NCBI RefSeq assembly: GCF_001412655.1
Contig: NZ_CP012996.1
Span: 4,464,001-4,528,000 of the forward strand
Direction: 5' to 3'
Length of the DNA stretch: 64,000 nucleotides
DNA from: Pedobacter sp. PACM 27299
GTDB lineage: Bacteria; Bacteroidota; Bacteroidia; Sphingobacteriales; Sphingobacteriaceae
Shown in pieces: positions 41,242 to 64,000 of the stretch (positions are counted from its first letter, which is position 1; the number at the start of each line of letters is the position of its first letter). A program made the translations under genes and the position numbers. The notes under the pieces are model-generated. The model had not been told where the DNA came from. It searched no databases and saw nothing but the letters and a program-made list of their open reading frames with translations.

Positions 41242-44200
41242 TTACTTTAGACATCTCAGCGGCATGGCCTCTGCTTTATTGTTGTCAATGACCTGCAATA
41301 TCCCATTCCAATGAAACATTTTACCTGCAAGATTAGTTCCGGTTGTTCCGGTCCAATAATATAGTGAATTCACTCGCCAAACATAATTACCTGCTGGCAG
41401 TATAGATCCTGCCATATGGATTTTCAGGGGAGAATTGTAAATATGATCCAATGTTGTCCAGGCCTGTGGCGGAGCAATTACGGTACTCATTTCGGTAGCC
41501 GTAGGCAATCTCCAGCCAGAGCCCATCAGCGCGGCGCAGGGGTCATTTGCAGCTGTCCAATCTCCTATTTCATTGATTGCAGTTGTCCAGGCTGTAGCAG
41601 GCGTACGGGTAGTACCATCGTGCTTATAACCTTGTTTCCGATTAAACTGCCAGTACCATCCTGATGCAGCCTCTGAATTGTCGGCTACATTTGTTGCCTG
41701 GCGGTCCGCACCCAGATTCTGGGTGATCCAGCAGCGTGCAGCCCCACTCAAATTACTGCTCAGTGTACTATATGTTACTGTTTTATCTACTGGAGCGCCA
41801 TTTACTCCTGCAACATGACTCAGTGTAATTGGCTTACAAATTTTAAAACTGGCCGCATCTGGGCTGTAACCTGTTCCAGTCGCATTGCTCGCATAGGCAC
41901 GTACATAAATGGCAGATCCTTCTGCAAGACCTGTGATGGTCGCATTAAAGTCACCGGTCGTATTTCCTGTTACCGGCAATACCTGATCGTTCAGGTCCGG
42001 TACTGGATTTATAGTACTCCATACCAATCCCTTTGCGGTAATCGCAGATCTGCTGTTAGAAACTACTGTCGCTGAAGCCGCAGCTGAACTTTCCTTTATT
42101 CCTACAGCCGGAATAACCACTGAAGTCAGCACAGGGACACTAGCTTCTACCCCATCACGTAAACAACGTATTGAATATCCAAAGGATTTATAAGTTTCGG
42201 AAAAAGCACCTTGATTTACCAAACTATTACCGGCAGTAAATTGCAAAGGGATACCATACACAGGGTCGCTTGGATAAGCAAACTGGTTGCTACTCCAATA
42301 ACGTCCATTAGCTCCTCTGGTGGTTCCTTTAACCCCGGTATTGTAATCCAGGTATCCCGCATTGTGTAATTTTAAGTCAGATTGATAAGCTTCCTGATCT
42401 TTCGTCCAATTTTGTGGAGGCGCATCTGCTGCGGTCCATTCTGCGGCAGTCGGCATGCGCCATCCGCCACCAAGTAATAAACGGCAAGGATCATTGGCAG
42501 GCAGCCAGTCGCTGTTTAAACTGACTTTTATCTGCCATGGTGCCCAACTGGTTGCTGCAGGAATCCGGTCTGTAGTATTTTGCTCATAGCCTTGTAAACG
42601 GTTAAACTGCCAGTACCAGCCTGCGGATTCTGCTGAGGCATCGTTAAAGGCTGTGGCTTGCTGTGTGGCCCCCAGATTCTGGGTAATCCAGCAGCGAGCT
42701 GCTCCGGTAATCGTACTACTTACTGTATGGTAAATTACTGTTTTATCGACCGGTGCCCCGTTGAATCCAGCTTTGTGAATCATGGTCACTGGATTACATA
42801 TTTTGAAAGTACTGGCTTCTTCGCTATACACAATGCCTACACTGCTTTGCGCATAAGCCCTAACATAATAAGTAAACTCTTCAGTTAATCCTTCCATCAA
42901 GATGCTATACGTGCCAGAACCGCTACCACTATCTTTGATCTTCTGATCTGCGGTGGTTGGCATTTTATTACTGGTACTCCATACCAAACCACGTTCGGTA
43001 ACTGCAGCAGTTCCCACCCTGCTCATCGTTGCAGTAAGCGTTGCAGCATTGCTGGTCATTCCTGAAGCAGGAACCAGCACATTGCTCACTGCAGGCAAAG
43101 TAGCAGTCGGTTCATCTCTTAGACAGCGTACTGGCATAGCACCTGCTTTATTGTCATCTACGACCTGCAATGACCCATTCCAGAAAAACATCTTAGCCGT
43201 AGTCGTCGTCGCACCTCCCGTGCTGGTCCAGTAATACATAGAAGTGCCACGTCCGGTAAAACTACTTCCTGAAGTGACATATCCAGCCATGTGCATTTTC
43301 AAGGGGGAATTGTAAATCTCTGAAGTTGCTTTCCATGCCTGTGGAATAGCTACCACTGTATTCATTTCTGTAGCGGTAGGCAATCTCCATCCAGAGCCCA
43401 GAAGAGAAACACAGGGATCCTGTTCTGCAGACCAGCCGCCATTTTCATTGATTGCGGTAATCCATGGTGTCCAGGCATTGGAAGGCGTACGGGTTCCTTC
43501 CAGTTTATAACCCTGTTTGCGGTTAAACTGGAAGTACCATCCTGAGGCCGCTTCGGTGTTGTCAGACACTGCGGCTGCCTGGCGATCAGCGCCTAGATTC
43601 TGGGTGATCCAGCAGCGTGCGGCACCGCTCAAACTACTGCTTACCGTACCATAAGTAACTGTTTTATCTACGGCAGCACCATTCAGTCCGGCCACATGAA
43701 TCGCGGTAAAGGGGTTACATATTTTGAAACTGGTGGCCTGTGTGCTGTAACCTGTTCCATTTGCATTGCTTGCATAAGCACGTACATATATGGTAGGTCC
43801 TTCAGCAAGACCTGTGATGGTCGCATTAAAATCACCTGTGGTATTTCCTGTTACCGGTAATACGTTATCATTCAAATCAGGTTTTGGATTCGTGGTACTC
43901 CATACCAATCCTTTTGCGCTGATTGGAGATCCGCCATTAGCAACCAAGGTAGCTGAACCCTCAGCTGAACTTTCTTTCATTCCAGAAACCGGAATGCTCA
44001 CTGGTGTCAGGACAGGAACACTAGCCTCTACCCCATCACGTAAACAACGTATCGAATACCCAAAGGATTTATAAGTTTCGGCAAAAGCACCTTGATTCAC
44101 CAAACTATTACCGGCAGTAAACTGTAATGGGATACCATAAACAGGATCGCTTGGGTAAGCAAACTGGTTGCTGCTCCAATAACGTCCGCTGGCTCCTCTG

Positions 44201-47200: not shown

Positions 47201-50200
47201 CCACCATTTTCATTGATTGCGGTAGTCCATGGCGTCCAGGCATTGGAAGGTATACGGTTAGCCCCTTCCTGTTTATAACCCTGTTTACGGTTAAACTGGA
47301 AATACCACCCTGAGGCCGCTTCTGCATTGTCAGATGGGCTGCTGGCTTGGCGATCAGCTCCAAGATTCTGGCTGATCCAGCAGCGCGGGGCACCACTAAC
47401 ACTGCTGCTTACCGTACCATAAGTGACTGTTTTATCCACGGCAGCACCATTTAGTCCGGCCACATGAATCGCGGTAACTGGATTACATATTTTAAAACTG
47501 GTGGCTTCCGGACTATAGCCCGTGCCATTTGAATTGGTCGCATAAGCACGCACATAAATGGTAGGCCCTTCAGCTAGACCCGTTAAATTTCCGGCCATAT
47601 TCTCCAGATTTGCGTTTACCGCCAGCCTCTGATCTGTCAAATCGGGTTTCGTATTCGTGGTACTCCATACAAAACCAGTTGCCGTTACGGCCAGGCCTCC
47701 AGTTGAAGTTAAGAAAGCAGTCGCTTCTGCTGATGCCTCTTTCATTCCAGATACAGGAAGCGTAACCATACTTAATTTAGGTTTCGTCAATGCAATCGTA
47801 TCTCTGATACAGCGAACAGAGAAGGCGTAATTTTTATTCAGGTTCATGACCTGCGGCGTTCCGCCTGTCACCATTAATCGGCCCATATCATTGGCCGACA
47901 TATTACTGCTCCAGAAATACCCGTTTGTTCCTTGATACTGCATGGCTGCTCCAACCGTATATCCTGAACTGATCAGTTTCAACGGAGAGTTATAAGTATC
48001 GGTTACCGTATTCCAGTTTTGAGGCGGCCCATCTGCATTGCTCCACTCTGTTGCGGTTGGCAAACGCCATCCTCCACCCAGTAACAGATCGCAAGGGTCG
48101 TTCTCCGGCAGCCAATCACTATTTTCATTTATGGTTGAATTCCATGGTTTAATGTTATTATCTGGTGTTCTGACTGTGCCTTCTATTTTATACCCCTGAC
48201 TACGGTTGAACTGCCATAACCAACCTGTTGCAGGTTCTGAGTAATCAGAAATCGTAGTCGGTTGACGATCTGCACCCAGATTTTGTGTGGTCCAGCAGCG
48301 TGCTGCGCCAGACATCGAAGAACTCACCGTGCCATAGGTCACCGTTTTAGAAACCGGTGCGCCATTTAAACCTGCAATATGACTGATCGTCATCGGATTA
48401 CAGATTTTAAAGCTCGTGGTTTCTCTGCTATAACCGGTACCATTTAAATTAGTGGCATAGGCACGTACATAAATCGTAGGTCCTTCCGCAAGGCCGGCCA
48501 AGGCAGCAGTAAAGGTTTGCAGGCTTGATCCAGCCACCTTATTGTCTTTCAATTCAGGTACTGTATTTTTAGTGCTCCATACAAAACCACGTTCCAGAAC
48601 TGGTAAACCTGCATCCGAAATCATAGTCGCGGTAGCCTCTGCTGAACTTACTTTCATTCCTGATACCGGAACGCTGACCAAGCCAACTCTTGGTCTCGCC
48701 AGTAAGATTGAATCTCTTAAACAGCGTACAGAGAATGCATAAGATTTAGCCAGGTCCATTACCGAAGCTGTTGAACTGCTGATCATCGCTTTTCCCACAC
48801 TACTAGACACTGCAGTGCTGCTCCAGAAATAACCAAAACGGCCCTGAAACTGTACACTTGATCCATCGCTGTAACCTGTGGTATTCAGTTTCAAAACGGA
48901 GTTATACGTATCTTCAATGGTATTCCAATTTTGAGGCGGTCCATCTGCATTGGTCCATTCTGTTGCGGTTGGCAAACGCCATCCTCCACCTAATAAAACA
49001 TCACAAGGATCATTTTCCGGTAACCAGTCGCCTTTTTCATCAATCACTGCAATCCATGGTGCTACCACGTTATTTGGTGTTCTGGCACTTCCATCCTGTT
49101 TGAATCCCTGACTCCGGTTAAACTGCCAAAACCAGCCTGTAGAAGGTTCCGTATAATCTGTAACGCTGGTGATCTGACGATCCGCACCAAGATTCTGTGC
49201 GATCCAGCATTGTGCAGTACCTGTAATATCTGTACTCACCGTCGTATAATTTACGGTTTTAGTGACCGGAGCACCATTTGAACCTGCGGTATGGGTCATG
49301 GCAAAAGGCTTACAGAATTTAAACCTGTTCACCTCATCGCTATAGCTGATGCCCACACTAGTGATGACATAAGCACGTGCATAATAGGTTGGATTTTCCA
49401 GCAGCTGATCTAAAATACCAGTCAGGTTAGGGCTCAGGCCCGATCCTGTTATGATCTTTTGATCTGCGATGGTTGGTGTTTTTGAGCTACTACTCCAGAC
49501 TAAACCTTGCTCGATTACCTCTGCACCACCATAACTCAATACCTGTGCAGATAAATGAACTGCTGATACTGTAGTTTTATCAATTTTCACTTTAGTGACA
49601 GAGGGTAAGGTCAAAGCCGTTTTTAAACTGTCTAACGGACCGTAACCAGTACCGATCGTGTTTGTCGCATAAGCCTTGAAATAGTACACTGTACCAGGTA
49701 ACAATCCAGTCAGCTTGCTCATAAATACGCCTGTCCCTGCACCATCCAAAGTTTTGGTGGTTAAGGCAACAGTTGGGTTATTTGTAGTACTCCAAACCAG
49801 TCCGCGAGCGGTGGCTTTAATACCTCCTTCATTGGTCACTTCACCCCCAGCAGTTGCCGTAGCCGCTGTGATTTCTGTGGCCCTGCTGGTTTTCAGTGAA
49901 GGCACATTAATGGTAGTTAAGCTGTCCAGATTACCATAAGCAGTTCCCATATCATTGGTTGCATAGGCACGGATATAATATTTTGTTCCTTTGGTTAATC
50001 CAGTGATGGACACGTTGAAGCCCAGCATCCCAGATCCACCAGAGACTTTTGTTTCCAGTGCAATGGTTGGGTTTTTCTCTGTACTCCAGACTACCCCTCT
50101 GCCAGTCACGGTAAGATTTCCTGCATAGGTTACCGTACCGCCGGTTGCAGCGGTAGTTTCTGTGATTCCAGATGCTGCAGTGGTGGTAACTAATGGCAGT

Positions 50201-53200: not shown

Positions 53201-56200
53201 GCCAATACCGGTGGATCTGTGGTAAAGTTCAGCAGGTTGGCATAGGTTGTTCCGGCAACATTTGTCGCATAAGCCTGTACGTAATAAGTAGTATTTGCTT
53301 TTAGGTTTTTAAGTGGACTTTCAAAGGCACCGCCCCCACTCTCATTGCTGGTTCTGTTCATCGTGATCGTATCCGGATTAAATACCGGTACCGGGCTGTA
53401 CACCACCCCGCGAGCATATACATTAGATCCTCCTTCATCGGTTATATTACCTCCTGAGCTGGCAGTAGTACTGCCAGTTGCTTTTGAAAAAGCAGTAGTC
53501 AATACCGGCAATTGAGGGGTCATAAAGTTGACCACATCGCCATAGGTAATTCCTGCGCTATTGGTCACATAGGCACGCACATGATAAAGCGTATGCTGTT
53601 TTAATCCGGATATTTTTGTGGTAAAACTGCCGGTAAAATAGCCGGTTTCTGAAGTTTTATTTACGGTAACAGTATCCGGATTAAAGTTAAGATCTGTACT
53701 CCAAAGTACTCCTCTAGTGGTCACTAATGCACCGCCATTGGTTAAAATTGTACCACCGGCATTGGCCGTAGTAGTGGAAGCGGCAACAGCCGGATTGGTT
53801 TTCAGCGTGGCAAGGATTGGCGGCAAAGTGGTAAAGCTTTTTTCTTCAGCATAAGCGATGCCTACGGTATTCATCGCATACGCCCGCACATAATAAGTCG
53901 TATTTCCAAGGAGACCGCCTATTGGAGAAACAAAGTTCCCCATTCCTGCCCCATTTCCTAATTGCTGATCACTGATAGTAGGCAATTGATGTATACTCCA
54001 GCATACACCGCTCGAAGTAACCGGGGTACCTCCATTACTGGTAATCGTTCCGCCGGAAATGGCAGTCATGCTGCTGATCGTATTTGCCGCAATATCGCTT
54101 GTACTCAATTTCGGGAAACCGAAAGTGGTAAATTCTATTTCATTAGCGGCATAAGCGGTACCGGCACTATTGGTGACAAAAGCACGCACATAATATACAG
54201 TACCGGGTAATAAGTCGTTCATGGTCATACCGAAATTACCAGCTCCGAATGAGTTCCGTATTTTGGTGTTTGAATCTGCCGGATCGAAACCTTTCTGCGT
54301 ACTCCAAACTAAACCGCGATCACTGATGACAGCTCCGCCGTTGCTGGAAATGGTACCTCCGCTATTTGCAGTTATTCCTTGCGGGCCACTAATCGCCGTC
54401 GTAGTACTGATGGTCGCCAGTACTGGTGGCGCAGTTACAAATTGCTGTACATTACCATAAGCGGGACCTGCACTATTGATGGCATAAGCACGTACATAGT
54501 AAGTTGTGCTTCCGATCAGCTCATTGATGCCCTGAACAAAATTACCAATTCCTGTCCCACCTGCGGTATGTGCATCATCGGTAGTTGGCAAACCTGCGGT
54601 ACTCCAGCAAAGTCCACTTTGTAATACTGGTGTTCCGCCATCTGCAATAATATTACCTCCGCTACTTGCCGTATTTGCAGTAATGGAGTTCACTGGTAAA
54701 GTAGTCAAGGTCGCGATCGTTGCGGTGGTAAAAGTCAGTTCATTTCCATAAACCACACCAACTTCATTGATGGCATAAGCTCGTACATAGTACTTCGTTA
54801 ATGGCAGTAAATCTTTCATTTCGGCAGAGAAAATTCCTTTCCCTGTGCCGCTCGCTTTATTGCCGTCTGTGATTTCCGGATCAGCTGTGGTGCTCCAGCA
54901 AATCCCTCTCGAGGATACAAAACTACCCCCATCATTGATAATTTCTGCTCTTGCAGAGGCGGTTATCCCACCTATATTTTCAATATTCAGCGTCGTGATT
55001 GCTGGTAATACAGCCGGGGCAGTCATGAATGTTTCTTCGTTTCCGTAAACCGTAGCGACGCCATTTCCTGCATAAGCACGTGCATAATATCTGGTACTGC
55101 CGGTTAGCCCGGTCAGGTAACTGCTAAACTGTGCTCCGGTTTCGCCATTGCTGACTACCGTTCCCCAGGTGCTTGGATTTGGGCTGGTGCCATAAGCGAC
55201 GCCGCGGAAGGAAATCCCTGAGCCTCCAGGGTTTAAAATCTGTCCACCAGTACTGGCCGTAAAACTGCTGATTTGTGTCACCGGCAAGGTGCTGATACTG
55301 ATGTACAATGGAGTGATGAAACTCATTTCCCTGGTATACACTGTACCTGCACTATTGGTCGCATAACCTTTTGCATAGTACACGGTACCCGGCAATAGCC
55401 CTTCCAGCTGCACATTAAATCCACCCACATCCCCAGGTTCTATTGCTTCCTGCTGCAGGTAAGTGAGTTTATCAGTGCTATAAGCGACTCCTTTGGATAA
55501 GATTTTTCCACCGCCGTTGTTTTGTATATATACCTGACCATGTGCCTGGGTATCTTTAATATTGTTGATGATTAGATTTTGAGCAGCAAGCGTAGGCAGC
55601 TGAGAAGCTGGTGTCACAAAAGTGAGCAGGTCTCCATACGCTTTTCCAAACTTATTTTCTGCATAAGCGCGGATATAATACGTCGTATTTCCGTACAAGT
55701 TGCTCAGGAAACTCTGATAAGTTCCAGCACCAGGGCCATCCTTGGTCTGGCCAGCTTCCCGGTCATCCCCAGGATCACCGGTTCTACTCCAATATACCCC
55801 TTTAGCAATAATGTCTGCATCGCCATTGCTGGTAATGATTCCACCGCCGGTAGCGGTCATATTGGTAATCGCTATTACCGGCTGTGTACTGACTTCCGGA
55901 ATCCCTGGAATCAGGCTAAAAGTTTTATCGGCACCATAAGAAGTACCCACCACATTGGTGGCGTAAGCCCTCACATGATACACGGCATTTGGTTCCAGGC
56001 CGGTCATGGTGCTACTGAATACGCCAAGACCACTGCCGTTGCTGCTGCTGGAACTGTTGCTCAGTGATGGGCTCTCTAATAAATTCCAGACTACACCACG
56101 GGCAAGAATTGGCGCATCCCCGTCACTCAGCACTTCTCCACCACCTCTGGCTGTGTTGTTGAAGAAAGATCCCGCAGCAAGTGTACTTACTGTCGGATAA

Positions 56201-57990
56201 TCCGGTGTGCGGAATACTTCTTCATTACCATAAGCCACACCCACTGCATTGATCGCGTAAGCACGTACATAATAAGTGGTAGCAGGCACTAAATTCTTGA
56301 TTAGACTGTTGTAAGCCCCGCTGCCATCACCAGAAAAAGACTGCTCTGTTTTAGTGGGCAGCTCAATAGTTGGCGTAGGACTGCTGCTCCAGCAAATGCC
56401 CCTCACAGTAATTTGAACCCCACCATTATGGCTGATCTGACCTCCACTGTAAGCCGAGATTCCGGTTAAGTTGTTTGGCTTAATGGTGGTGATCAGCGCC
56501 AGTGAATTGGTGATGAAACTGGTTTCACTTGTATAAGCGGTTCCTGCAATATTGGTCGCATATCCTTTGGCAAAATAAGTAGTTCCGGGAGCCAGATTGG
56601 TTAGATTCCCAATGTACACGCCAATATCTGTTGGGTGAATGGTTTCTGAAGTTCCATGAATCCAGGTGATGCGATCGGTACTCCAGGTAAAACCTCTGTC
56701 GGAAACTACTGCTCCTCCATTGTTTAATATATTGACTTCGCCTTTGGCGGATTTATCGGTAATGTGGGTCAGGGTGACCGTTGCCGAACTCAATGCTGGA
56801 GGCACTGGCGGCGGCGTGGTAAAGCTCAGTAAATTACCGTAGGCGATGCCCATCGTATTTACCGCATAAGCCCTTACATAATAGGTGGTATTTCCTAATA
56901 AGCCCACTAATGAACTTGGGAAAACGCCTACTCCTGAACCATCGTTGGTCAGTATGGCATCTTTATCTGCTAATGGATCCCCTTTGATGCTCCAACGGAT
57001 ACCGCGGGCAGAAACCGGGCTGCCACCATCATCAGTAATGTCGCCGCCACTGATCGCATCAATACTGCTGATGCTGTTTAAATCTAAAGTAATAATAGTG
57101 GCCAGGTCGAAAAGCGTGGTAAATGTTTTGTCTTCCCCATACACGGTTCCCTGGCTATTGGTGGCATAAGCACGCAAATGATAAGTGGTATTTTGAAGCA
57201 AACCGCTCAATGTATTGCTGAATGAACCTAATCCAGCACCGGTAACATGATTTACTGTTTTTGTGTTTAAAGAAATGTCCGGGTTAGGGCTGATGCTCCA
57301 GCAAAAACCTCTTGCCGTCACATCAGATCCTGCATTGCTGATCACTTCGCCATGCGCCAATACGGTGGTTCCTTTAATATCGGTCACATCCAGGGTCAAC
57401 ACTTCGGCCATACATCTGATGTCCTGCCAAAGTATACCATCAAAATAACGCAGTGTTCTGGAACTTGCATTGAGGTAAAATGCACCGGTTTGTACGGAAA
57501 GGATGGCTGGATCTGTAGATAACACCGGGAGTTTAAAGGTCTGTGCTGCTGTTCCTGCTGCAAAACCTGTGCTTGGTGTGAATAGGCTTCTGCTCAGGTC
57601 TTGAATTTTCACCCATGCTGCTCCGTCATAAATCATGGCCGATTTCTGGATGGAGGAGAAGTAGATCGTGCCTGCTGTGATACTTTTCACTGGATCTTTA
57701 GCCAATACTGGCAAATAAGAAATCCCGGCTTTGACCATAAAATAATCCTCCGGACTCACCATTTGCATGGTATTCGTACACAGGGTTTCCCAGCTGCTGC
57801 CGTTATAGATTAAAGGTTTCGCCAGTACATTACTATAAATCAGCATTCCTGTTTTAGGACTGCTGATGCTTTGCGGGTCTACCACCGCCAAATGCGGGAT
57901 ACCGTTCAGTACGCTAAAAGAATGCTGTGCAACAGCAGTATTCCCTAGAAAGAGTAAAAATAGAAATACAGCGTACAGAATTCTTTTCAA
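41242..57990 (-). CDS. Giant secreted protein, 5582 residues, Fn3-like repeats and FISUMP domains
   Basis: The longest gene in the window. The start codon is TTG (57988-57990), giving the signal peptide MKRILYAVFLFLLFLGN; no better start lies between it and the preceding stop. Three short modules of the kind GxxYxNxxxxxxxYxGxxW fill residues ~20-190. Next come 27 Fn3/Ig-like repeats of about 100 residues each (key positions RGxxWS, then TYYVRAYAxNxxGxxYG), then 9 FISUMP domains (Fibrobacter major paralogous domain: NGAPVDKTVTY, RCWITQNLGA, DPC-x-LLGGGWRLPTATEW, VRCLRD), each separated by one Fn3-like repeat, giving about 35 in all. FISUMP domains each have four recurring Cys. There is no C-terminal T9SS sorting domain; the chain ends inside the last FISUMP (PLRCLK). 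It probably forms a long surface stalk with binding domains at its tip. Only 36 bases separate it from the SprF-like gene. Confidence 0.93.
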   Translation of the reverse strand: MKRILYAVFLFLLFLGNTAVAQHSFSVLNGIPHLAVVDPQSISSPKTGMLIYSNVLAKPLIYNGSSWETLCTNTMQMVSPEDYFMVKAGISYLPVLAKDPVKSITAGTIYFSSIQKSAMIYDGAAWVKIQDLSRSLFTPSTGFAAGTAAQTFKLPVLSTDPAILSVQTGAFYLNASSRTLRYFDGILWQDIRCMAEVLTLDVTDIKGTTVLAHGEVISNAGSDVTARGFCWSISPNPDISLNTKTVNHVTGAGLGSFSNTLSGLLQNTTYHLRAYATNSQGTVYGEDKTFTTLFDLATIITLDLNSISSIDAISGGDITDDGGSPVSARGIRWSIKGDPLADKDAILTNDGSGVGVFPSSLVGLLGNTTYYVRAYAVNTMGIAYGNLLSFTTPPPVPPALSSATVTLTHITDKSAKGEVNILNNGGAVVSDRGFTWSTDRITWIHGTSETIHPTDIGVYIGNLTNLAPGTTYFAKGYATNIAGTAYTSETSFITNSLALITTIKPNNLTGISAYSGGQISHNGGVQITVRGICWSSSPTPTIELPTKTEQSFSGDGSGAYNSLIKNLVPATTYYVRAYAINAVGVAYGNEEVFRTPDYPTVSTLAAGSFFNNTARGGGEVLSDGDAPILARGVVWNLLESPSLSNSSSSSNGSGLGVFSSTMTGLEPNAVYHVRAYATNVVGTSYGADKTFSLIPGIPEVSTQPVIAITNMTATGGGIITSNGDADIIAKGVYWSRTGDPGDDREAGQTKDGPGAGTYQSFLSNLYGNTTYYIRAYAENKFGKAYGDLLTFVTPASQLPTLAAQNLIINNIKDTQAHGQVYIQNNGGGKILSKGVAYSTDKLTYLQQEAIEPGDVGGFNVQLEGLLPGTVYYAKGYATNSAGTVYTREMSFITPLYISISTLPVTQISSFTASTGGQILNPGGSGISFRGVAYGTSPNPSTWGTVVSNGETGAQFSSYLTGLTGSTRYYARAYAGNGVATVYGNEETFMTAPAVLPAITTLNIENIGGITASARAEIINDGGSFVSSRGICWSTTADPEITDGNKASGTGKGIFSAEMKDLLPLTKYYVRAYAINEVGVVYGNELTFTTATIATLTTLPVNSITANTASSGGNIIADGGTPVLQSGLCWSTAGLPTTDDAHTAGGTGIGNFVQGINELIGSTTYYVRAYAINSAGPAYGNVQQFVTAPPVLATISTTTAISGPQGITANSGGTISSNGGAVISDRGLVWSTQKGFDPADSNTKIRNSFGAGNFGMTMNDLLPGTVYYVRAFVTNSAGTAYAANEIEFTTFGFPKLSTSDIAANTISSMTAISGGTITSNGGTPVTSSGVCWSIHQLPTISDQQLGNGAGMGNFVSPIGGLLGNTTYYVRAYAMNTVGIAYAEEKSFTTLPPILATLKTNPAVAASTTTANAGGTILTNGGALVTTRGVLWSTDLNFNPDTVTVNKTSETGYFTGSFTTKISGLKQHTLYHVRAYVTNSAGITYGDVVNFMTPQLPVLTTAFSKATGSTTASSGGNITDEGGSNVYARGVVYSPVPVFNPDTITMNRTSNESGGGAFESPLKNLKANTTYYVQAYATNVAGTTYANLLNFTTDPPVLAQLTTRAAVAITGSAATSGGDIFDDGGAAPTTRGMVWSTQSGFRPDTVIQSKTVQAGLGKGGFLSTIPGLKAGTTYYMRAYAINSVGTAYGNELSFTTLIVPTLTTSEVTVSSAGITAIGGGTIISDGAATVNNQGLVWSTTPNPMVGTPNQTSNDSGTGNTFRSNLTGLEPITLYYVRAYAVNSQGTAYGNEVTFTTPAILPALSTNYATASSKSTATTGGMITKDGGAPVTERGVVWSTDRSFNPDAELMNKTADGVGMGTFSSEMTGLKLSTAYFVRAYAKNRIGTAYGNQVTVTLFPTAPILSTTAVTELGGYSASSGGVITSDGGADVTQKGLVWSIRSNPTINDSKTANGPGQDTYAAVMTGLVPNTLYYVRAYAQNKIGTAYGVERTFLTDALPTLTVTTAVTNVIATTATSGGDITDDGRSPIMVRGVTWNTTGEPTLEKSSKTIDKTTTGIGKFEAFLTGLSGETTYYVRAYATNAVGTTYGSQISFVTKPVMLPTLQTNSPTAIESIKVITGGNVIDDGGMPVTQRGICWSTSPNPTTALTTRLNHTTGGTGDFSIPVTGLLPGTKYYLRAFGTNIKGTAYGEELSFFTLAIPPAVGLAIVSNVLGNSIDLSGIVTNNGGDEITDRGFYYSKVSKIPVLPFQLDSLVSAGTNGVFAGTLNGLISGGKYYIWAYASNSMGTGLSTAPTITTTKTVPVLSTTKPYNILKTGASSGAAAFMDGGSPVTARGTIWSTTKELTTDLPTKTSDGTGVAAFASVLTGLEKRTLYYVRAYATNAIGTGYGNLDSLNTVDIPIVTTTLMTSIKSTSAIGGGDVLDKGGLPLSNNGICWSTSPNPTYENSSRLVVGTAAGMFTGEIRGLALATKYYYRAFANNAQGLAYGEEYSFTTLAEMPVVSVVTLAKAQLTGVDAAATITNTGGGGITDRGFYWSTSAKAPVLPLHPDSLLSVGTEGTFSGTIKSLSSGVKYNFWAYVTNAIGTAWSAAPTVLNTPALPLVTTTAASGITETTAATGGTVTYAGNLTVTGRGVVWSTEKNPTIALETKVSGGSGMLGFNVSITGLTKGTKYYIRAYATNDMGTAYGNLDSLTTINVPSLKTSRATEITAATATAGGEVTNEGGIKATARGLVWSTTNNPTVALTTKTLDGAGTGVFMSKLTGLLPGTVYYFKAYATNTIGTGYGPLDSLKTALTLPSVTKVKIDKTTVSAVHLSAQVLSYGGAEVIEQGLVWSSSSKTPTIADQKIITGSGLSPNLTGILDQLLENPTYYARAYVITSVGISYSDEVNRFKFCKPFAMTHTAGSNGAPVTKTVNYTTVSTDITGTAQCWIAQNLGADRQITSVTDYTEPSTGWFWQFNRSQGFKQDGSARTPNNVVAPWIAVIDEKGDWLPENDPCDVLLGGGWRLPTATEWTNADGPPQNWNTIEDTYNSVLKLNTTGYSDGSSVQFQGRFGYFWSSTAVSSSVGKAMISSSTASVMDLAKSYAFSVRCLRDSILLARPRVGLVSVPVSGMKVSSAEATATMISDAGLPVLERGFVWSTKNTVPELKDNKVAGSSLQTFTAALAGLAEGPTIYVRAYATNLNGTGYSRETTSFKICNPMTISHIAGLNGAPVSKTVTYGTVSSSMSGAARCWTTQNLGADRQPTTISDYSEPATGWLWQFNRSQGYKIEGTVRTPDNNIKPWNSTINENSDWLPENDPCDLLLGGGWRLPTATEWSNADGPPQNWNTVTDTYNSPLKLISSGYTVGAAMQYQGTNGYFWSSNMSANDMGRLMVTGGTPQVMNLNKNYAFSVRCIRDTIALTKPKLSMVTLPVSGMKEASAEATAFLTSTGGLAVTATGFVWSTTNTKPDLTDQRLAVNANLENMAGNLTGLAEGPTIYVRAYATNSNGTGYSPEATSFKICNPVTAIHVAGLNGAAVDKTVTYGTVSSSVSGAPRCWISQNLGADRQASSPSDNAEAASGWYFQFNRKQGYKQEGANRIPSNAWTPWTTAINENGGWSAEQDPCVSLLGSGWRLPTAGEMTAVIAAPQSWKTQADIYNGVLKIHMSGSVTAGGSFAGRGSTLTYWTSTLGANTTTGKFLYWNGALQIGDNNKAEAMPVRCLRDEITAALPAVSNVLVPASGITSNAAAPKATVSMAGTAAVTERGLVWSTNNKMPTTADQKIKDSGNGTGDFNLLMNGLTEEFTYYVRAYAQSSVGIVYSAEASTFKICNPVTVIHRAGFNGAPVDKTVTYKTVSSTVSGAARCWITQNLGAAQQATAFNDATPESAGWYWQFNQIQGYEQHTTDRIPAALSYAPWQIKISSNSDWMPANDPCRLLLGGGWRMPTAAEWIAADAPPQNWTKDQDAYQSDLKLHNGGYLDYNTGVKGVTRGASGRYWSSNQFAYPSDPIYGIPLQFTAGNSLVNQGSFSETYKSFGYSIRCLRDAVEASLPILTQVSVPVSGMKESSAEGSATLVADGGSPISSKGLVWSTINPTPGLNDNVLPVTGNATGDFSMTITSLTEGPTIYVRAYASNANGTGYSAQATSFKICNPFTAIHVAGLNGAAVDKKVTYGTVSSSLSGAPRCWITQNLGADRQASTVSDNTEAASGWYFQFNRKQGYQLEGANRIPSNAWTPWITAINENGGWSAEQDPCISLLGSGWRLPTATEMSTVIAIPQAWRATSEIYNSPLKMHLSGYVTSGGSFTGRGTSMYYWTSTAGTTTTTAKMFFWNGSLQVVDDNKAGAMTVRCLRDEITATLPAVSNVLFPALGMINNSAAATATVSKAGTAAVTERGLVWSTSNKMPTAVDQKIKDIGNGTGDFNLVMNGLSEEFTYYVRAYAQSSVGMVYSEEASAFKICNPVTVIHRAGFNGAPVDKTVTYTTVSSTVSGAARCWITQNLGATQQGTAFNDATPESAGWYWQFNQVQGYEQNTTERIPVAPSYAPWQIKVSSNSDWLPANDPCRLLLGGGWRMPTAAEWTVADAPPQNWTKDQEAYQSELKLHNAGYLDYNTGVKGTTRGASGRYWSSNQFAYPSDPVYGIPLQFTAGNSLVNQGAFAETYKSFGYSIRCLRDGVEASVPVLTPVSIPVSGMKESSAEGSATLVANGGSPISAKGLVWSTTNPKPDLNDNVLPVTGNTTGDFNATITGLAEGPTIYVRAYASNANGTGYSTQATSFKICNPFTAIHVAGLNGAAVDKTVTYGTVSSSLSGAARCWITQNLGADRQAAAVSDNTEAASGWYFQFNRKQGYKLEGTRTPSNAWTPWITAINENGGWSAEQDPCVSLLGSGWRLPTATEMNTVVAIPQAWKATSEIYNSPLKMHMAGYVTSGSSFTGRGTSMYYWTSTGGATTTTAKMFFWNGSLQVVDDNKAGAMPVRCLRDEPTATLPAVSNVLVPASGMTSNAATLTATMSRVGTAAVTERGLVWSTSNKMPTTADQKIKDSGSGSGTYSILMEGLTEEFTYYVRAYAQSSVGIVYSEEASTFKICNPVTMIHKAGFNGAPVDKTVIYHTVSSTITGAARCWITQNLGATQQATAFNDASAESAGWYWQFNRLQGYEQNTTDRIPAATSWAPWQIKVSLNSDWLPANDPCRLLLGGGWRMPTAAEWTAADAPPQNWTKDQEAYQSDLKLHNAGYLDYNTGVKGTTRGANGRYWSSNQFAYPSDPVYGIPLQFTAGNSLVNQGAFSETYKSFGYSIRCLRDGVEASVPVLTSVVIPAVGIKESSAAASATVVSNSRSAITAKGLVWSTINPVPDLNDQVLPVTGNTTGDFNATITGLAEGSAIYVRAYASNATGTGYSPDAASFKICKPITLSHVAGVNGAPVDKTVTYSTLSSNLSGAARCWITQNLGADRQATNVADNSEAASGWYWQFNRKQGYKHDGTTRTPATAWTTAINEIGDWTAANDPCAALMGSGWRLPTATEMSTVIAPPQAWTTLDHIYNSPLKIHMAGSILPAGNYVWRVNSLYYWTGTTGTNLAGKMFHWNGILQVIDNNKAEAMPLRCLK
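42100..47760. repeat. Three tandem copies of a ~1.89-kb unit in the giant gene
   Basis: FISUMP domains 3 to 8 alternate between type A (AIHVAGLNGAAVDKTVTYGTV) and type B (VIHRAGFNGAPVDKTVTY). Matching landmarks recur every ~1880-1890 bases: for type A near 43590, 45480 and 47360, and for type B near 42670, 44550 and 46437. DNA copies look roughly 90 percent identical by eye. Boundaries are approximate. Confidence 0.85.
49320..57410. repeat. Array of 27 Fn3-like coding repeats
   Basis: A repeat of about 300 bases recurs across this part of the giant gene. Protein copies share the RGxxWS and YYVRAYA motifs but diverge more than the FISUMP units do, so the array is older. Boundaries are approximate. 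Confidence 0.8.
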
Positions 57991-58026
57991 TGGTAGAGCG
58001 CTAATTTGTATAAAATGGAGGGTGGT

Positions 58027-58932
58027 TTATTTTCCTTCGTTGAATAGTTTAATCTTGATGTTAATCTCAAAATCTCCACCGGTTCGCTGGCGTTCACCGG
58101 CCAGCTGACTGGTGTAATACCCCTGGATCACATATCTATCGTAAGCCACACCTACCCCAAAACTGGAACTCTTGTCGCTATGGTACATTCCTAAAAATGA
58201 AAGGATGTTATTTTCCAGCTTCACATTGGTTCCGATGTCCCAGATGTTATCAATGTCTTTGGCGCCTCTGAAACTGATCTTTGGTTCAATGGAAACGACA
58301 TCCAGGCTGGTTCCGATTTTATAGGAAGCGGCTACAAAATAAGTAGAGCCGTCTACCGTATTCTGATCGTCCTTCTGCATGAACTTCTTTAAGTTCGGCA
58401 GGGCACCCTGCAGGGTAAACCTTTGGTTGGTAAAGGCAATTCCGAAATCACCATCTACAAATGCTTTGCGCTGATTGAAGTTCTGCGCAGAGATGTCATC
58501 AGGTGCAGCGATGATGTTGTTGTTGTCTAGCTTTTCTTTCATCATGCCCAGTGAAACACCGAAATGCAGACTTCTATTGTCGCCGTTTAAGGGCAAATGA
58601 TACGCATAAGTTCCCATCACCCGGGTACGTCCAATCAGTCCTGCATTGTCGTTGTAAACGGAAAGTCCCAATCCCACTTTTTCAAAGCGATAATCACCGG
58701 TCAGCGACATGGTGACTGGTGATCCTGGAATGGATCTCCATTGATTACGGTAACCTATATTTACATTTAGGCCTTCATTCATCCCTGCAAATGCAGGATT
58801 ACTGAGGTATTGATTTTCATAATATTGGGCACCCAAAGGTCTGATCTGTGCCAAGGCATTCTGCCCTGCTGCAAACAGTCCCATCATTATACTTCCGCTA
58901 ACTAAAATCCTCCGCACTACTAATTTCATCAT
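58027..58932 (-). CDS. PorP/SprF family type IX secretion membrane protein
   Basis: 301 residues from the ATG at 58930-58932 (MMKLVVRRILVSG); a frame two codons longer would use TTG. A signal peptide ending in ALAQ is followed by the PorP/SprF start, with QYLSNPAFAGM, RNQWRSIPGSPVTMSLTGDYRF and GLGLSVYNDNAGL, and a barrel that ends in FEINIKIKLF. Members of this family help export type-B cargo of the type IX system, usually the protein encoded beside them. Here the neighbour upstream has a type-B sorting domain, and the giant gene lies directly downstream. Confidence 0.9.
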   Translation of the reverse strand: MMKLVVRRILVSGSIMMGLFAAGQNALAQIRPLGAQYYENQYLSNPAFAGMNEGLNVNIGYRNQWRSIPGSPVTMSLTGDYRFEKVGLGLSVYNDNAGLIGRTRVMGTYAYHLPLNGDNRSLHFGVSLGMMKEKLDNNNIIAAPDDISAQNFNQRKAFVDGDFGIAFTNQRFTLQGALPNLKKFMQKDDQNTVDGSTYFVAASYKIGTSLDVVSIEPKISFRGAKDIDNIWDIGTNVKLENNILSFLGMYHSDKSSSFGVGVAYDRYVIQGYYTSQLAGERQRTGGDFEINIKIKLFNEGK

Positions 58933-58948
58933 GATCAATTTTATCTGA

Positions 58949-59710
58949 TTATTTGTCTCTTACTATAGAAATAAATCCTGTTTTCTTACCCTTCCCAGAG
59001 TCTAAAGTCAGGATATAATAATACGTATCCTCTTGAAGCGGAATCCCGTTAAACATCCCATCCCAGGAATTGTCATAGCCAAACATGGTAAATACCACCC
59101 TACCCTCGCGGTCAAAAATCTTCAGCTCATTGTTAGGATAGAGTTGGATATTCTTCACGATCCAGGTATCATTCTTCCCATCACCATTTGGAGTGATCAT
59201 GTTATTTCCTTCCAGATCTGCGTACGGTTTCGCTACCGAAGCCACCATACTCACCGCAGTAATGTCTGAAAGCAAGATTGCCTTGGCAAACAGCTGACCA
59301 ATGTATCTGTGATCGGGGTTGACTACACTTTCCGTTACCTGAATAAAATCTTTGGCATTGTTGCTGGTCATCGGCGCATAAGTCAGCACCAGGTTTTTAG
59401 CTTCATTACCATTCAACTCTACATTCTCATAACTCAGGGCCAGTTCTCCATCAAAGCTGAGGGGTTTACTGAACCGATACATCCTTTGAATGCTGTTAAA
59501 TTTCGGAAAAATCACCACCGAAGGCTGTTTACTGATCGTCAGGTTATTCAATTGCAGATCAGTGCTAGGTACCAGGGTTAATCCTTCCGTACTGAATACT
59601 GTTCCATTTTGAATAAAAAGACTTTCCGAATTCACTTTTAGCTGTGCCTTCAATTTTACTGCTGGTAAAAGCAGGAAACCGAAGGCTAGTGATGCGATTA
59701 TTTTCTTCAT
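58949..59710 (-). CDS. Small exported protein with type-B T9SS sorting domain
   Basis: 253 residues with a signal peptide (to about residue 22) and a C-terminal gliding-motility-associated (CHU_C/type-B) domain from about residue 170: NMITPNGDGKNDTW, NELKIFDREGRVVF, NSWDGMFNG, TYYYILTLD and GFISIVR at the end. The preceding ~145 residues are strand-rich (LFIQNGTVFSTEG, VVIFPKFNSIQRMYRF) with no recognised domain. It is exported by the type IX system through SprF-like help, and it is much smaller than usual type-B cargo such as SprB. It may be a membrane anchor or cap for a larger partner. Confidence 0.9.
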   Translation of the reverse strand: MKKIIASLAFGFLLLPAVKLKAQLKVNSESLFIQNGTVFSTEGLTLVPSTDLQLNNLTISKQPSVVIFPKFNSIQRMYRFSKPLSFDGELALSYENVELNGNEAKNLVLTYAPMTSNNAKDFIQVTESVVNPDHRYIGQLFAKAILLSDITAVSMVASVAKPYADLEGNNMITPNGDGKNDTWIVKNIQLYPNNELKIFDREGRVVFTMFGYDNSWDGMFNGIPLQEDTYYYILTLDSGKGKKTGFISIVRDK

Positions 59711-59745
59711 TATGGTCTATTTTAATCCCTTTTATATCGGGCTTA

Positions 59746-61182
59746 TTATTTCATTTCTGCTTCCAACTGGGCAACCGTTTCCGGCAAGCCCACAATCTTA
59801 TTAGTTTTGGCTTCTACCAATACCATTGTTGGCGTAGAAAGCACAAAATACGCTGCAGCTTCCGGGCTTCTAATGCCCTGATCTGCCCTTTTATGTTTGA
59901 AGGAGCTCAGTTTTACTTTTGCCTTTTCCCAGGCTGGAATTTCCGTTTCCGTTTCATCCAGACTGATGGCAAACACGTCCATCATTTCTTTCTTTGCCGC
60001 ATCCTGATACCAGGGATGTAATTTTTCCATCAACTCTTTACAATGCTGGCAATCTGCCGACCAGAATAAGACCAGTTTATATTTGGCTTCTGTTTTAAAA
60101 TCGTGGAAAGGCACCGTTTTTCCCGATGCTAAATTCCATTTGAAATTTGGGGCTACAGCACCTACAGTTAGGGTCTCCATGCCTTTCAGTCTTTGCTCAA
60201 TCGCTTTTCTTTTGCTCGTTAAACAGGAAGGATCATTCAGGTAAGGTTCCAGCATTTTAATACCGGCAGTCATGTTGAAACTTTCAAAGCCATTATAGAA
60301 ATAGTCTACCATCCATCCGTAAACCTGTGGATTTCCCAGTTTTGCTTTTTCAATCGCTCTCTTTCCAGCAAGGGTAAACAGGGAATCACGGAGCTCTATG
60401 GTTTTAGACATTGCACCATAAATGTTCACATATTTATTCATCCATTCCTTTAGCTCATTGGTTTGAATAATTGCGGGATTCTTGAAATTCATGCCATCAA
60501 AATAGTGGTCAATTGCACTGTTCAAGCGATCTGTTTCTGTCCCGTTCCAAACGATTGGCGGGATGTGCTGGAACACAAATGTGTTGCTCACGAAAAGGTT
60601 TTTATATTGTTCGGTTTGTGCGGCTAACCATTTGTTGTAGATTTCACGTCTGCTGTCGTACTCAGCAGTGCCCATAAGGAAAAACTTAGCTGTTGGCTGG
60701 TCATAGTTCATCAGGAAATTCTGCAACAAACCAAGCTGTTCTCTTTTCTTAAAGTTTTCCATGCTGAAGCGGGTCATCAGGGTATTTTCCCTTTCGTCCT
60801 TTTGGAAGTAAGTGCTGTCTGGATTGGACAGTGATTTTGGTTTCACCCATAACTCCAGGTTTTGATCATTAATGAAAATGTGTTTTTCCGAAGGATATGG
60901 GTTGCTGCTTTCCTGTTCCTGGAAATCAAAACGCAATACGAATTCTGCGGGCAGCAATGTTTTTGGAATGTACAGTGTTGCCGTTTGCCCTTTATGGATT
61001 GCAGGATGTTCCACAACCGTTTTAATGGAAGCACCTGTTAAGGAAAGTAAGGAGATCTTACTTTTGGCTACTCCAGATAAATGTATTTTTAAACTGACAT
61101 CCTGTGCCTGTACGGTGATAGACATCATACCCGTTAAGGCAATCGTCAGGATGATACTTTTAAATGGATTAATGGTCATCAT
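59746..61182 (-). CDS. TlpA/thioredoxin-like exported protein
   Basis: 478 residues with a signal peptide (to about residue 26) and an N-terminal beta-rich part like those in DUF4369/DUF5106 proteins (VSLKIHLSGVAKSKISLLSL). The C-terminal thioredoxin-like domain begins around residue 345 (GAVAPNFKW) and has the redox pair C378 and C381 in SADCQHC, then a cis-Pro in STPTMVLV. It should act on disulfides in the periplasm. In this operon it lies between two large Cys-bearing or surface proteins; the giant protein's FISUMP Cys pairs are a candidate substrate, as an inference. Confidence 0.87.
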   Translation of the reverse strand: MMTINPFKSIILTIALTGMMSITVQAQDVSLKIHLSGVAKSKISLLSLTGASIKTVVEHPAIHKGQTATLYIPKTLLPAEFVLRFDFQEQESSNPYPSEKHIFINDQNLELWVKPKSLSNPDSTYFQKDERENTLMTRFSMENFKKREQLGLLQNFLMNYDQPTAKFFLMGTAEYDSRREIYNKWLAAQTEQYKNLFVSNTFVFQHIPPIVWNGTETDRLNSAIDHYFDGMNFKNPAIIQTNELKEWMNKYVNIYGAMSKTIELRDSLFTLAGKRAIEKAKLGNPQVYGWMVDYFYNGFESFNMTAGIKMLEPYLNDPSCLTSKRKAIEQRLKGMETLTVGAVAPNFKWNLASGKTVPFHDFKTEAKYKLVLFWSADCQHCKELMEKLHPWYQDAAKKEMMDVFAISLDETETEIPAWEKAKVKLSSFKHKRADQGIRSPEAAAYFVLSTPTMVLVEAKTNKIVGLPETVAQLEAEMK

Positions 61183-61200
61183 TATGGCTTCAATTCTTTG

Positions 61201-64000
61201 TTATTTTAATCTTTTAAGGATCTGGTCGATCTGCTCCTGTTGTTTAGTCATTTGCGTTTTCAAGTCCTCAATTTCTTTTTGTTGTTCTTTTATGGCTTGA
61301 ATCAGGATTCCCGTCAGCTGGGTATAATCTACTTTTAGAAAACCATCTTTGCCTTCTGTCACCATTTCAGGATATACTTTTTGTAATTCCTGGGCGATGA
61401 CGCCGATTTTCGGTCCTGCTGCATATTTGCGCTGGTCTTTGTATTCGAACCTTACTCCCCTGATCTGATCGATCTTTTGAAGGGTGGAACTTAACGTTTC
61501 AATATGGTTTTTTAACCTGCGGTCTGATGGGGTGTAAAAGTTGGCGCGGATCGTTAAATTCTGTGCAAAAATGGCACTTCCATCGGTTTCAAAAGTGACG
61601 CCTTTTCCTGCCATCCCATCTGCACTGATGGCATTTCCAGCGAGGATCACATTGGTGGTAGCGGTATGGTTACCCAAATTGTCTTTTCCGGCAGCTGCCG
61701 CAGCAGTTAATCCTGCATCCAGGGTTTGCTTATTTACAGCGTCTAGTTTTTCGATTGGATCAGCAACATTGCTTAGTTTAAAATTACCCATATCCAAGTC
61801 TTTTAATGGCAAGCCAAATCCAGATAATGGGATGGCTGTTTTTTCAATTTCTGAGGCTTTACCTGCAGTGTTACCCACTAAAAAGTAATCCTTTTTCAGG
61901 GCGATTGCGTCCGGGTTAAATGACTTTGTATCCAGGTAGTTTTTCGTGACCGCGTCTTGTGCTTCGCTTGGATCAGCAAGGCCAGTAATTTTCACACTAC
62001 CCATTGCCAATGGCGCTGTAGGTACAGCAAATCCTGTTAGTGAGATGGCTGATTTCTCAATTTCCGAAGCTTTGCCTGAAGCATCACCAATAAAGAATTT
62101 TCCTACGGCTAAAGCAGGAAGACCTGTTCCTGCTGTTCTTGAATCCACATAAGCTTTTGTGGCTGCATCCTGACCTGCATCAGGCTCGGCAAGGTTCATC
62201 AATTTAAAATTTGTGGTCCCATCGCCGAAAGAAATGTCTGCTTTTGGACCTGCAAAATCGCTCAGCGAAATGGCTGATTTCTTAAACGGCTCTGCCTTAT
62301 TTACACTATTTCCAACCAGAATATGGTCTGTAGCTAAGGTCATCGTTGCTGGATTGGCCACCTTAAGATCCACATAAGCCTTCGTTGCAGCATCCTGAGG
62401 TTGTTTCGGATCAGCCATAAAATTGATCTGAAACATATTATTTACATTATCTGCATCTCCCATCTCAATATTCGCTATTGGCTTTGCAAATCCACTCAAG
62501 GGGATTTGAACTTTAGGAATCGCGGTTGCTTTTCCTGTCGCACTTCCAACAAACATATTGTCTTCAGGGAGTCTCAATAATTTTTCCGGGGCCGTAAAAA
62601 GACCATCTACATATTTCTTATTTACCCCATCAGTTTCTACTTTAGGTTCGGCAAGGTCAGTCAATATCACACCGCCAAAAGACACACTTTTTATCGGTAC
62701 CCCAAAACCACTTAAAGGGATTGTATTTTTTAACACATCTGCTGCTTTCCCATTGGCATCCCCTACAAAAAAATTGTCTGCCGTTAAGTTCAAACTGGAA
62801 GCTGGGATCTTTAGTTCATCCACATATTTTTTAGTTACTGCATCCAATTCGGTCTCTGGCGCTTTCAGATTGGTAATTTTAAAACCAGCCATAGATAGCT
62901 CCTTAGTAGGATCAGCAAATCCAGTGATTGAGATGCCGCTTTTTAATATTGGGCTCGCCACATTCAGGTCACTACCAATTAAAAAGCTTCCCTTCGCCAG
63001 GGTAATTTTGTTGGGATTGATCGCTCTGGTATCTACATAATTTTTAGTAGCTGCATCCTGCGGATCTAAAGGTTCTCCAAGGTTGACGATTTTAAATTTC
63101 GCTCCTGCTCCGCTTACCCCCATAGATACATTATCTATGGCTTTATCAAATCCAGAAATAGGGATCAGGTTTTTTGGAGTTGGGGTAGCCACATTTAAAA
63201 TACTTCCTACAAAAAAGTTATTGGATGGCAATGTCAGAGCTGCTGGGTCCGCGAACAGGCCATCAACATAACCTTTGGTTGCGGCATCATTCGCTAAAGA
63301 TGGACCTTTCAGATTTTTAATCGCAAAATTACTGGTGCCATTCCCCATACGAACATCCGCTGTTGGGAAACTAAAACCACTCAATGGGATATTTCCTTTA
63401 TCCAACTTTTCGTTGAGAATGGCTAAATTATTAATGGTCAGTTTACCAACACTGTTTAACGTTGCATCACCAGATAGAGGAACAGAAACTGCTTCATTGG
63501 AAGCATTCCCCACAAAAATATGACCTTCACTCAGCACATTGTCTATCGACACCCAGCCGATGCTATTGTAGACATAAAGTTTATGATCAGACTGGTTATA
63601 AAACAAATCTCCTTCTCTTACCTTTACAACCGAAGGATCAGGATTTGTATTTCCCGTAGGCGTAGATCCATTGGTAGAGATTTTAAACCATAAAGCACCA
63701 TTGTAGATATAAGTATTGTTATCGTCTTTATTGAAGAACATTTCCCCTGCCTTTGCCGGATTTGGGAACTCAGATTTAGTACCGCTGGCAATGACTCCAC
63801 CACCTAAAGTGATCCAGCCTTTTTCTGTAAAGGCATAAAGTTTTTTGTCGGTTACGTTATAGAAAATATCACCGAATTTAGGGTTTTTAGGAATCTCTGC
63901 ATCGGTACCCGATTTAAATGCACGTATATCCTTATCTATATCTTGAATTGCGGCATTCATAACCGCTATTTTTAAAGCATCATTTGCATACTCTGGATCA
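61201..64000 (-). CDS. Phage tail fibre-like protein with C-terminal S74 chaperone domain (5' end outside window)
   Basis: The frame is open to the window edge, so the N-terminus is missing; 932 residues are visible. Three short GDIFYNVTDKKLYAF-type modules come first, then eight repeats with NFFVG, a short spacer, LSGF and DAATKAYVD motifs, the pattern of phage and bacterial tail-fibre proteins. The last 108 residues form an S74 intramolecular chaperone (SDRRLKNHI at its start, GVIAQELQKVYPEMV, LKVDYTQLTGILIQAIKEQQKEI), ending in a coiled coil. Such domains trimerise the fibre and then cut themselves off. No phage gene surrounds it. Spacing of 18 bases to the next gene makes one operon likely. 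Confidence 0.9.
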   Translation of the reverse strand, partial: DPEYANDALKIAVMNAAIQDIDKDIRAFKSGTDAEIPKNPKFGDIFYNVTDKKLYAFTEKGWITLGGGVIASGTKSEFPNPAKAGEMFFNKDDNNTYIYNGALWFKISTNGSTPTGNTNPDPSVVKVREGDLFYNQSDHKLYVYNSIGWVSIDNVLSEGHIFVGNASNEAVSVPLSGDATLNSVGKLTINNLAILNEKLDKGNIPLSGFSFPTADVRMGNGTSNFAIKNLKGPSLANDAATKGYVDGLFADPAALTLPSNNFFVGSILNVATPTPKNLIPISGFDKAIDNVSMGVSGAGAKFKIVNLGEPLDPQDAATKNYVDTRAINPNKITLAKGSFLIGSDLNVASPILKSGISITGFADPTKELSMAGFKITNLKAPETELDAVTKKYVDELKIPASSLNLTADNFFVGDANGKAADVLKNTIPLSGFGVPIKSVSFGGVILTDLAEPKVETDGVNKKYVDGLFTAPEKLLRLPEDNMFVGSATGKATAIPKVQIPLSGFAKPIANIEMGDADNVNNMFQINFMADPKQPQDAATKAYVDLKVANPATMTLATDHILVGNSVNKAEPFKKSAISLSDFAGPKADISFGDGTTNFKLMNLAEPDAGQDAATKAYVDSRTAGTGLPALAVGKFFIGDASGKASEIEKSAISLTGFAVPTAPLAMGSVKITGLADPSEAQDAVTKNYLDTKSFNPDAIALKKDYFLVGNTAGKASEIEKTAIPLSGFGLPLKDLDMGNFKLSNVADPIEKLDAVNKQTLDAGLTAAAAAGKDNLGNHTATTNVILAGNAISADGMAGKGVTFETDGSAIFAQNLTIRANFYTPSDRRLKNHIETLSSTLQKIDQIRGVRFEYKDQRKYAAGPKIGVIAQELQKVYPEMVTEGKDGFLKVDYTQLTGILIQAIKEQQKEIEDLKTQMTKQQEQIDQILKRLK

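Follow-up and report, generated by a model that had tools for sequence, protein, structure and literature searches.

T9SS effectors carry a CTD, and type B substrates are extracted by cognate SprF-like shuttles; the available portion of PMC12618676, from which this account comes, gives a length of 150-235 aa for type B signals and describes PorE-free pairs as the mobile ones in Flavobacterium johnsoniae. In the same organism, a Cys-x-Cys C-tail is needed for the link of SprF to GldK, according to the excerpts of PMC12635249. Export of CTD-less fibres together with a separate CTD protein is not described in the titles and abstract openings of the open-licence PMC matches listed. Here we analyse a locus of a soil-dwelling Pedobacter in which large fibre proteins stand beside a small CTD-bearing protein, and we follow the N-terminal domain of that small protein (the head) across its family and class.

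Locus organization

The window is the whole stretch of 64,000 nucleotides that was analysed, bases 4464001-4528000 of the one-contig 6.147 Mb genome of Pedobacter sp. PACM 27299. An earlier note on this DNA had proposed a five-gene minus-strand operon for a surface fibre. The list of open reading frames confirmed its five genes (Table 1), the intergenic gaps of 36, 10, 35 and 18 bases were as first given, and the family assignments held at curated cut-offs (PorP_SprF/TIGR03519, CHU_C/TIGR04131, AhpC-TSA/Thioredoxin_8, Peptidase_S74 and Lcl_C/Fib_succ_major). The boundary of the operon, however, had to be moved: the S74 gene overruns the window, and a sixth gene, 14 bases upstream of it and outside the window, belongs to the set and encodes a 1636-aa protein, COL. 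A 655-base gap and a 732-aa gene precede COL, and several genes flanking the operon recur beside it in relatives. The six genes, whose products have signal peptides as judged by eye, would form one transcript; in a scan of positions 57900-61300, promoter-like sites numbered 8 (7.9 expected) and terminator-like sites 5 (3.3 expected).

Table 1. Features of the locus within the window (all coordinates count from the first letter of the window).
Feature	Position	Strand	Details
Giant gene	41242..57990	-	Signal peptide, then an N-terminal fibre module, an array of Ig/Fn3-like repeats and nine FISUMP modules; 5582 aa
FISUMP (Lcl_C-like) modules, nine copies in alternation with Ig-like repeats	41245..49326	-	Four Cys per module; spacing ~912-960 bases
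Ig/Fn3-like repeats, ~100 aa each	49327..57360	-	
Giant N-terminal module, residues 31-74, related to COL VGIGT module	57769..57900	-	HMM
SprF/PorP-family outer-membrane carrier, 303 aa, no cysteine	58027..58938	-	TIGR03519
Small sorting-domain protein (headCTD), 253 aa	58949..59710	-	Signal peptide, head domain and type B CTD
Type B T9SS CTD, residues 166-253	58952..59215	-	TIGR04131/CHU_C
Head domain, residues 24-158	59237..59641	-	No Pfam family above cut-off
Thioredoxin-family protein (Trx), 478 aa, signal peptide by eye	59746..61182	-	CxxC at 60040-60051
S74 tail-fibre-like protein	61201..64000	-	422 bases continue past the window
Peptidase_S74 intramolecular chaperone domain	61360..61527	-	SDxxxK motif (SDRRLK)

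Two further features of the window lie outside the operon. A 106-aa minus-strand frame at 40843-41163, which resembles an XRE-type HTH regulator by eye, begins 78 bases after the giant gene, and a similar frame follows the giant region directly or within three genes in G362, N36a, KBW06 and G296. The sole array that TRF reported in the window is a 14-base tandem repeat of 2.9 copies at 21270-21310.

Fibre proteins and the giant

COL combines a signal peptide (by eye), an N-terminal module of the VGIGT type, a collagen stretch, DUF5907 and phage-tail repeats. The S74 protein measures 1073 aa from a TTG start or 1068 aa from an internal ATG, and the SDxxxK motif of its S74 domain was seen in all 18 distinct proteins that remained of 20 rows once two duplicates were set aside. 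A prophage origin of the S74 gene was considered and rejected on the strength of the signal peptides and of the flanking genes that recur in relatives; PHROGs were run on COL and S74 only. The VGIGT module matched COL at 7.8e-35 and S74 weakly, at 0.018-0.22, and the giant carries a relative of it near its N-terminus (3.3e-4 with an HMM of the full module; 6.6e-6 with a six-sequence HMM of its second half). Shared in this way by COL, the giant and, weakly, S74, the module is a candidate docking element. Neither Pfam, NCBIfam nor HMMs built from head proteins detected a type A or B CTD in COL, in S74 or in the giant.

The FISUMP modules of the giant scored above cut-off with both PF07603 (Lcl_C; 72.4 bits, cut-off 34.9, E 4.8e-20) and TIGR02145 (69.6 bits, cut-off 41.65). 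A structural model of the module found 8q4e as its top Foldseek match, and the best match in a sequence search against PDB sequences had E 0.73. The array extends to the C-terminus of the giant, and a FISUMP module likewise closes each of the 16 complete giants seen in 13 genomes, whose module numbers range from 2 to 13. Four cysteines occur in 95 of the 100 modules counted, and three or five in the remaining five. When the window's genome is compared with P. polysacchareus, the first two modules pair as orthologues with 86 and 92% identity; the inner modules reach up to 92% (own genome) and 99% (P. polysacchareus) identity within a genome and 60-74% between genomes, like types compared. The inner array thus appears to expand and homogenise within each lineage.

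An arabinosidase assignment of the giant was rejected, since the NCBIfam model NF049889 scored 517 bits, under its cut-off of 600, and repeats carried the score. That match lies in the Ig-like repeats, within the first 3200 aa, and could mislead the annotation of longer repeat proteins. A second giant-like frame, of 3035 aa, lies off the operon in P. gandavensis LMG 31462 (G209:C11:1265101-1265670).

The sorting-domain protein and its carrier

By its domains, headCTD is a type B T9SS substrate and the 303-aa protein encoded directly after it is a SprF-family carrier. The C-terminal domain of headCTD scored 73.7 bits with TIGR04131/CHU_C (cut-off 35), and the carrier scored 163.6 bits with TIGR03519 (cut-off 90.55). 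SprA is present in the genome, and no PorE family member was found among the operon's matches. The predicted structure of the head has a pLDDT of 85-96 over residues 31-150; in a fold search with the whole headCTD model, the CTDs of PorZ and NucA were the two best matches, and the CTD filled the list and left little on the head. Mature headCTD has ~230 aa, and since a minimal type B CTD already takes 150-235 aa, it is scarcely more than a signal. One 68%-identity copy of headCTD (P0041) comes from a eukaryote protein source and is probably bacterial contamination.

The nearest SprF relatives in the same genome, at 46 and 44% identity, follow proteins of 2919 and 2864 aa that carry the CTD on the same chain, which is the usual fused design. 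Five other type B CTD genes of this genome (L012, L013, L015, L017 and L018), with frames of 2865-5768 aa, each have a SprF-family match beside them. The giant departs from this arrangement. Its own CTD, a defining feature of SprB-type substrates, was looked for and not found, so we do not class it as one, and for the same reason it cannot be an ordinary SprF substrate.

Conservation across Sphingobacteriaceae

The earlier note had named a lack of conserved neighbourhood in relatives as the result that would speak against it. We found instead that the unit recurs in Pedobacter and in a second genus (g20). Among 399 family genomes, the head domain was matched in 38 at E<=0.001, and at >=40% identity it occurred in 20 genomes, 14 of Pedobacter and 6 of g20. 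The 14 Pedobacter heads, the window's own included, show 59-100% identity in proteins of 250-262 aa, and the g20 headCTDs have 405-429 aa and 40-47% identity, the alignment showing an insert in proteins of that length. The closest named relatives by headCTD are Pedobacter sp. N36a, P. polysacchareus and P. gandavensis, at 84-95% identity.

The S74 N-terminal domain was found in 19 of 398 genomes (E 1e-87 to 2.5e-5), all of which carry headCTD: the 14 Pedobacter and five of the six g20 genomes, the sixth (G020) having an S74 C-terminus at a contig edge. The Trx N-terminus occurred in 18 of 398 genomes at E<=2e-112, with two further weak matches (E 1.4e-4 and 8.3e-4), and the giant N-terminus in the same 18 genomes at E<=1.3e-12, with three further weak matches at ~5e-4. 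Fisher tests gave 1.5e-31 for S74 against head and 0.005 for Trx against giant within the 20 genomes, values that ignore shared ancestry; phylogenetic independence does not hold for the co-occurrence counts.

We read the gene order at 22 loci: the window's own, those of 13 other Pedobacter genomes, two from named Pedobacter (L034 and L036) and six from g20. It runs COL-S74-[giant]-Trx-headCTD-SprF-[giant], with giants before Trx, after SprF or at both places. The stretch from COL to SprF is whole in 15 of the 22 loci, and contig or fetch edges cut the other seven. Trx and giant are jointly missing in two of the 22, an absence that may be a single loss event. Given this survey of family genomes, the five-gene arrangement is not due to chance.

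Thiol enzyme and giant

Trx tracks the cysteine-rich giant and not the whole gene set. Both Pedobacter genomes without the giant (G179/BAL39 and G302) lack Trx; a search for FISUMP modules was likewise negative in both, and its controls in two other genomes were positive. N36a retains remnants of the giant, and its Trx is missing 80 aa from the end of the thioredoxin fold; in G085, a giant remnant of 107-112 aa lies beside a full-length Trx. Both of these are draft assemblies, in which repeats may have collapsed. The nine FISUMP modules of the giant hold four cysteines each (9 x 4), and mature COL, S74, SprF and headCTD of the same genome have none; other fibre frames of relatives have 0-2. 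Because Trx comes and goes with the giant, and because the other fibres of its own genome have no mature cysteine, the enzyme most likely serves FISUMP disulfides.

The head domain beyond the operon

Outside the 20 core genomes we obtained 29 head matches, all fetched with their flanks, in which 28 head frames were found; a class-wide search yielded a head in 6 of 391 genomes, where the window's own was the sole strong match. Over all loci, core and other, the head starts in 39 of 41 matches at residue 22-43, just after the signal peptide, and all 39 of these N-terminal heads are followed by a CTD, of type A in 12 and of type B in 27. TIGR04183 was above cut-off in nine of the nine type A heads scanned. 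The other two (L230 and L232) are internal, marginal matches in proteins of 3.1-3.5 kaa and were dropped from the last count.

We then compared the neighbours of heads with those of controls. An immediate same-strand neighbour with the VGIGT marker was present for 16 of 28 heads, against 1 of 69 headless type B proteins and 29 of 1033 other frames. Once inspection had led us to widen the markers so as to take in S74, BclA-type and collagen, such a fibre neighbour was present for 20 of 26 N-terminal heads against 2 of 87 headless CTD proteins (1 of 69 type B and 1 of 18 type A), where the S74 and BclA HMMs were built from Pfam-identified proteins of the test loci and the controls were judged with these test-tuned HMMs. 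Six sites known beforehand had prompted the idea of a head-fibre link; without them, 14 of 20 heads retain an immediate fibre neighbour. Within two genes, the figures rise to 22 of 26 heads and 8 of 87 headless CTD proteins, and the pair occurs in 9 of 11 genera.

All 12 type A heads have an immediate fibre neighbour; type B heads have one in 8 of 14 cases, and within two genes in 10 of 14. The misses are L217 and L221, where the fibre lies at one gene distance, and four loci of a further genus (g21), in which a head with CTD lacks a fibre at up to two genes' distance; three of these loci lie on contigs of 3.5-11.2 kb. These g21 heads suggest that the head may have other partners. The 13 other heads, mostly from the Pedobacter operon, run counter to the rule: 2 of them adjoin a VGIGT neighbour and 9 have one within two genes, the few adjacent cases reflecting that Trx and SprF flank the head gene there.

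The fibre partners linked to heads are YadA-head plus S74, BclA_C, collagen, FISUMP, Lcl_C or S74 proteins. None of the 54 fibre frames has a type A or B CTD (seven are cut at the 3' end), and no head-fibre fusion was seen in the head loci. Three partners combining S74 with YadA-head (L229 8642-9814, L231 8706-9857 and L228 10287-11438, the YadA-head falling below cut-off in L228) have a basic C-terminal end, preceded by a stretch that looks hydrophobic; this may be a membrane tail or a sorting signal.

A proposed model of export in trans

Our preferred reading, to which we give a probability of about one half (0.52), is that the locus encodes a multi-protein adhesive surface fibre system whose CTD-less fibres are exported or anchored via headCTD, acting in trans. 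COL and the presumably self-cleaving S74 protein (1636 and ~1070 aa) would form phage-tail-like, probably trimeric stalks, and the giant, with nine putatively C-type-lectin-like FISUMP modules (2-13 in relatives), would be the multivalent binding part. The thioredoxin-family protein would form or correct the two disulfides expected per FISUMP module. HeadCTD would then supply the T9SS signal in trans to large proteins without a recognisable one, its head binding the fibre protein, perhaps at the VGIGT-type N-terminal module of COL and the giant. The type B CTD would carry the complex through the SprA translocon, and SprF would hold the CTD at the outer membrane, such that the fibres are exported, anchored or both. 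A trans-acting partner is the simplest reading because a small protein made of a head and a T9SS signal adjoins signal-less fibres, with type A and type B CTDs alike. Several observations tell against the model: head-fibre fusions were not seen, Trx and SprF rather than a fibre adjoin the head gene in the window and in most core loci, the four g21 heads have no fibre close by, the VGIGT match of S74 is weak, and G085 keeps a full-length Trx next to its giant remnant.

This model retains part of the earlier proposal of a dedicated surface organelle or adhesin: our data support a dedicated fibre unit that has folding and export partners of its own, in a conserved neighbourhood. It also revises that proposal, which had missed the sixth gene; the only CTD found lies on the 253-aa protein, and Trx tracks the giant alone. 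A head domain that links CTD-less fibres to T9SS sorting signals goes beyond the organelle idea.

The strongest competing account treats headCTD and SprF as an ordinary type B substrate and carrier, merely co-regulated with fibres that exit by another route or by an unrecognised signal. Other routes do exist, as Bdellovibrio displays CTD-less phage-like fibres on its surface (PMC10769870, whose available text does not contain the word 'secretion'). The large proteins bear Sec-type signal peptides (by eye), and head genes of the core loci mostly do not lie directly beside a fibre gene, as this account would have it. It sits poorly, however, with a head-fibre neighbourhood within two genes that spans both CTD types and 9 of 11 genera, with adjacency in 12 of 12 type A heads, and with a mature headCTD that hardly exceeds a minimal CTD and so has little room for an independent function; we regard it as unlikely.

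Two further accounts see the fibres differently. In one, they are moving gliding adhesins of the SprB/SprF type that ride the GldJ/K/N track, which would accord with a SprF family member beside a type B CTD and with the lack of PorE among the operon's matches. The SprF proteins of this family lack cysteine in their last 25 residues in 22 of 22 distinct cases, so the Cys-x-Cys C-tail is absent and the gliding account weakened, and the giant has no detected CTD; we consider it highly improbable. A static fibre is to be expected, since the Cys-x-Cys through which F. johnsoniae SprF is linked to the moving track of GldK is missing here. In the other, the fibres stay periplasmic or leave in vesicles, and headCTD merely caps SprF. 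The available part of PMC9143113 speculates that PG1035 caps PorP, and Sec is the only recognisable export signal of the giant, yet putative C-type-lectin-like modules, S74 modules and a homogenised array of 2-13 copies are more in keeping with an exposed adhesin than with a periplasmic location, and we hold this account to be quite improbable.

Export in trans via headCTD may extend beyond this locus. We tentatively propose, at somewhat less than even odds, that the head marks a class of T9SS adaptors, general in Bacteroidota and so far undescribed, in which a small Sec-exported protein with a type A or B CTD exports a pre-assembled, CTD-less trimeric fibre by providing the signal in trans. 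Its cargo would be collagen, YadA-head, S74, BclA-like or FISUMP fibres, taken across and onto the outer membrane, and the version in the window would be an elaborate one, equipped with a giant lectin array and a thiol enzyme of its own. CTD-less Bacteroidota fibres of the tail-fibre, collagen-like and FISUMP kinds are known here by domain only; if the proposal is true, the head-CTD partner explains how they reach and stay on the surface, T9SS can move cargo whose signal sits on another polypeptide, and CTD-less fibres become genetically testable. For annotation, the rule would be to seek a fibre beside a head protein. The giant itself offers a naturally variable, multivalent lectin-like array with an apparent disulfide enzyme of its own.

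Relation to known systems

The closest described systems are SprB/SprF of F. johnsoniae and other type B CTD/PorP-like pairs, as portrayed in the available portions of PMC9143113, PMC12618676 and PMC12635249. Both there and here, the gene of a SprF-family carrier comes directly after a type B gene, the cluster includes a very large repetitive protein, and SprA is present. The differences are that a separate protein of 253 aa bears the CTD here, with none detected on the giant, that the carrier is without the twin cysteines of the C-tail, and that fibre and Trx genes are added. The mosaic adhesive trimer (MAT) fibres of Bdellovibrio, a family marked by a conserved domain of ~130 aa behind the signal peptide, are set apart by their published description: the available text of PMC10769870 describes no T9SS link, and the lectin fold forms a single tip there, against an array of 2-13 copies here. 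The collagen-like adhesin Lcl of Legionella (PMC11162425, in the part available) resembles the locus in the Lcl_C match of the FISUMP modules and in 8q4e as their top Foldseek match, and the Lcl model gives a weak match to the collagen stretch of COL (59.7 bits, cut-off 500). Here, however, lectin-like modules and collagen lie on separate proteins, and each module has four conserved cysteines, whereas Lcl-CTD is without disulfides according to the same part of that source. FISUMP proteins (TIGR02145) are matched above cut-off, and the giant differs from them in joining nine copies and Ig repeats in one 5582-aa protein.
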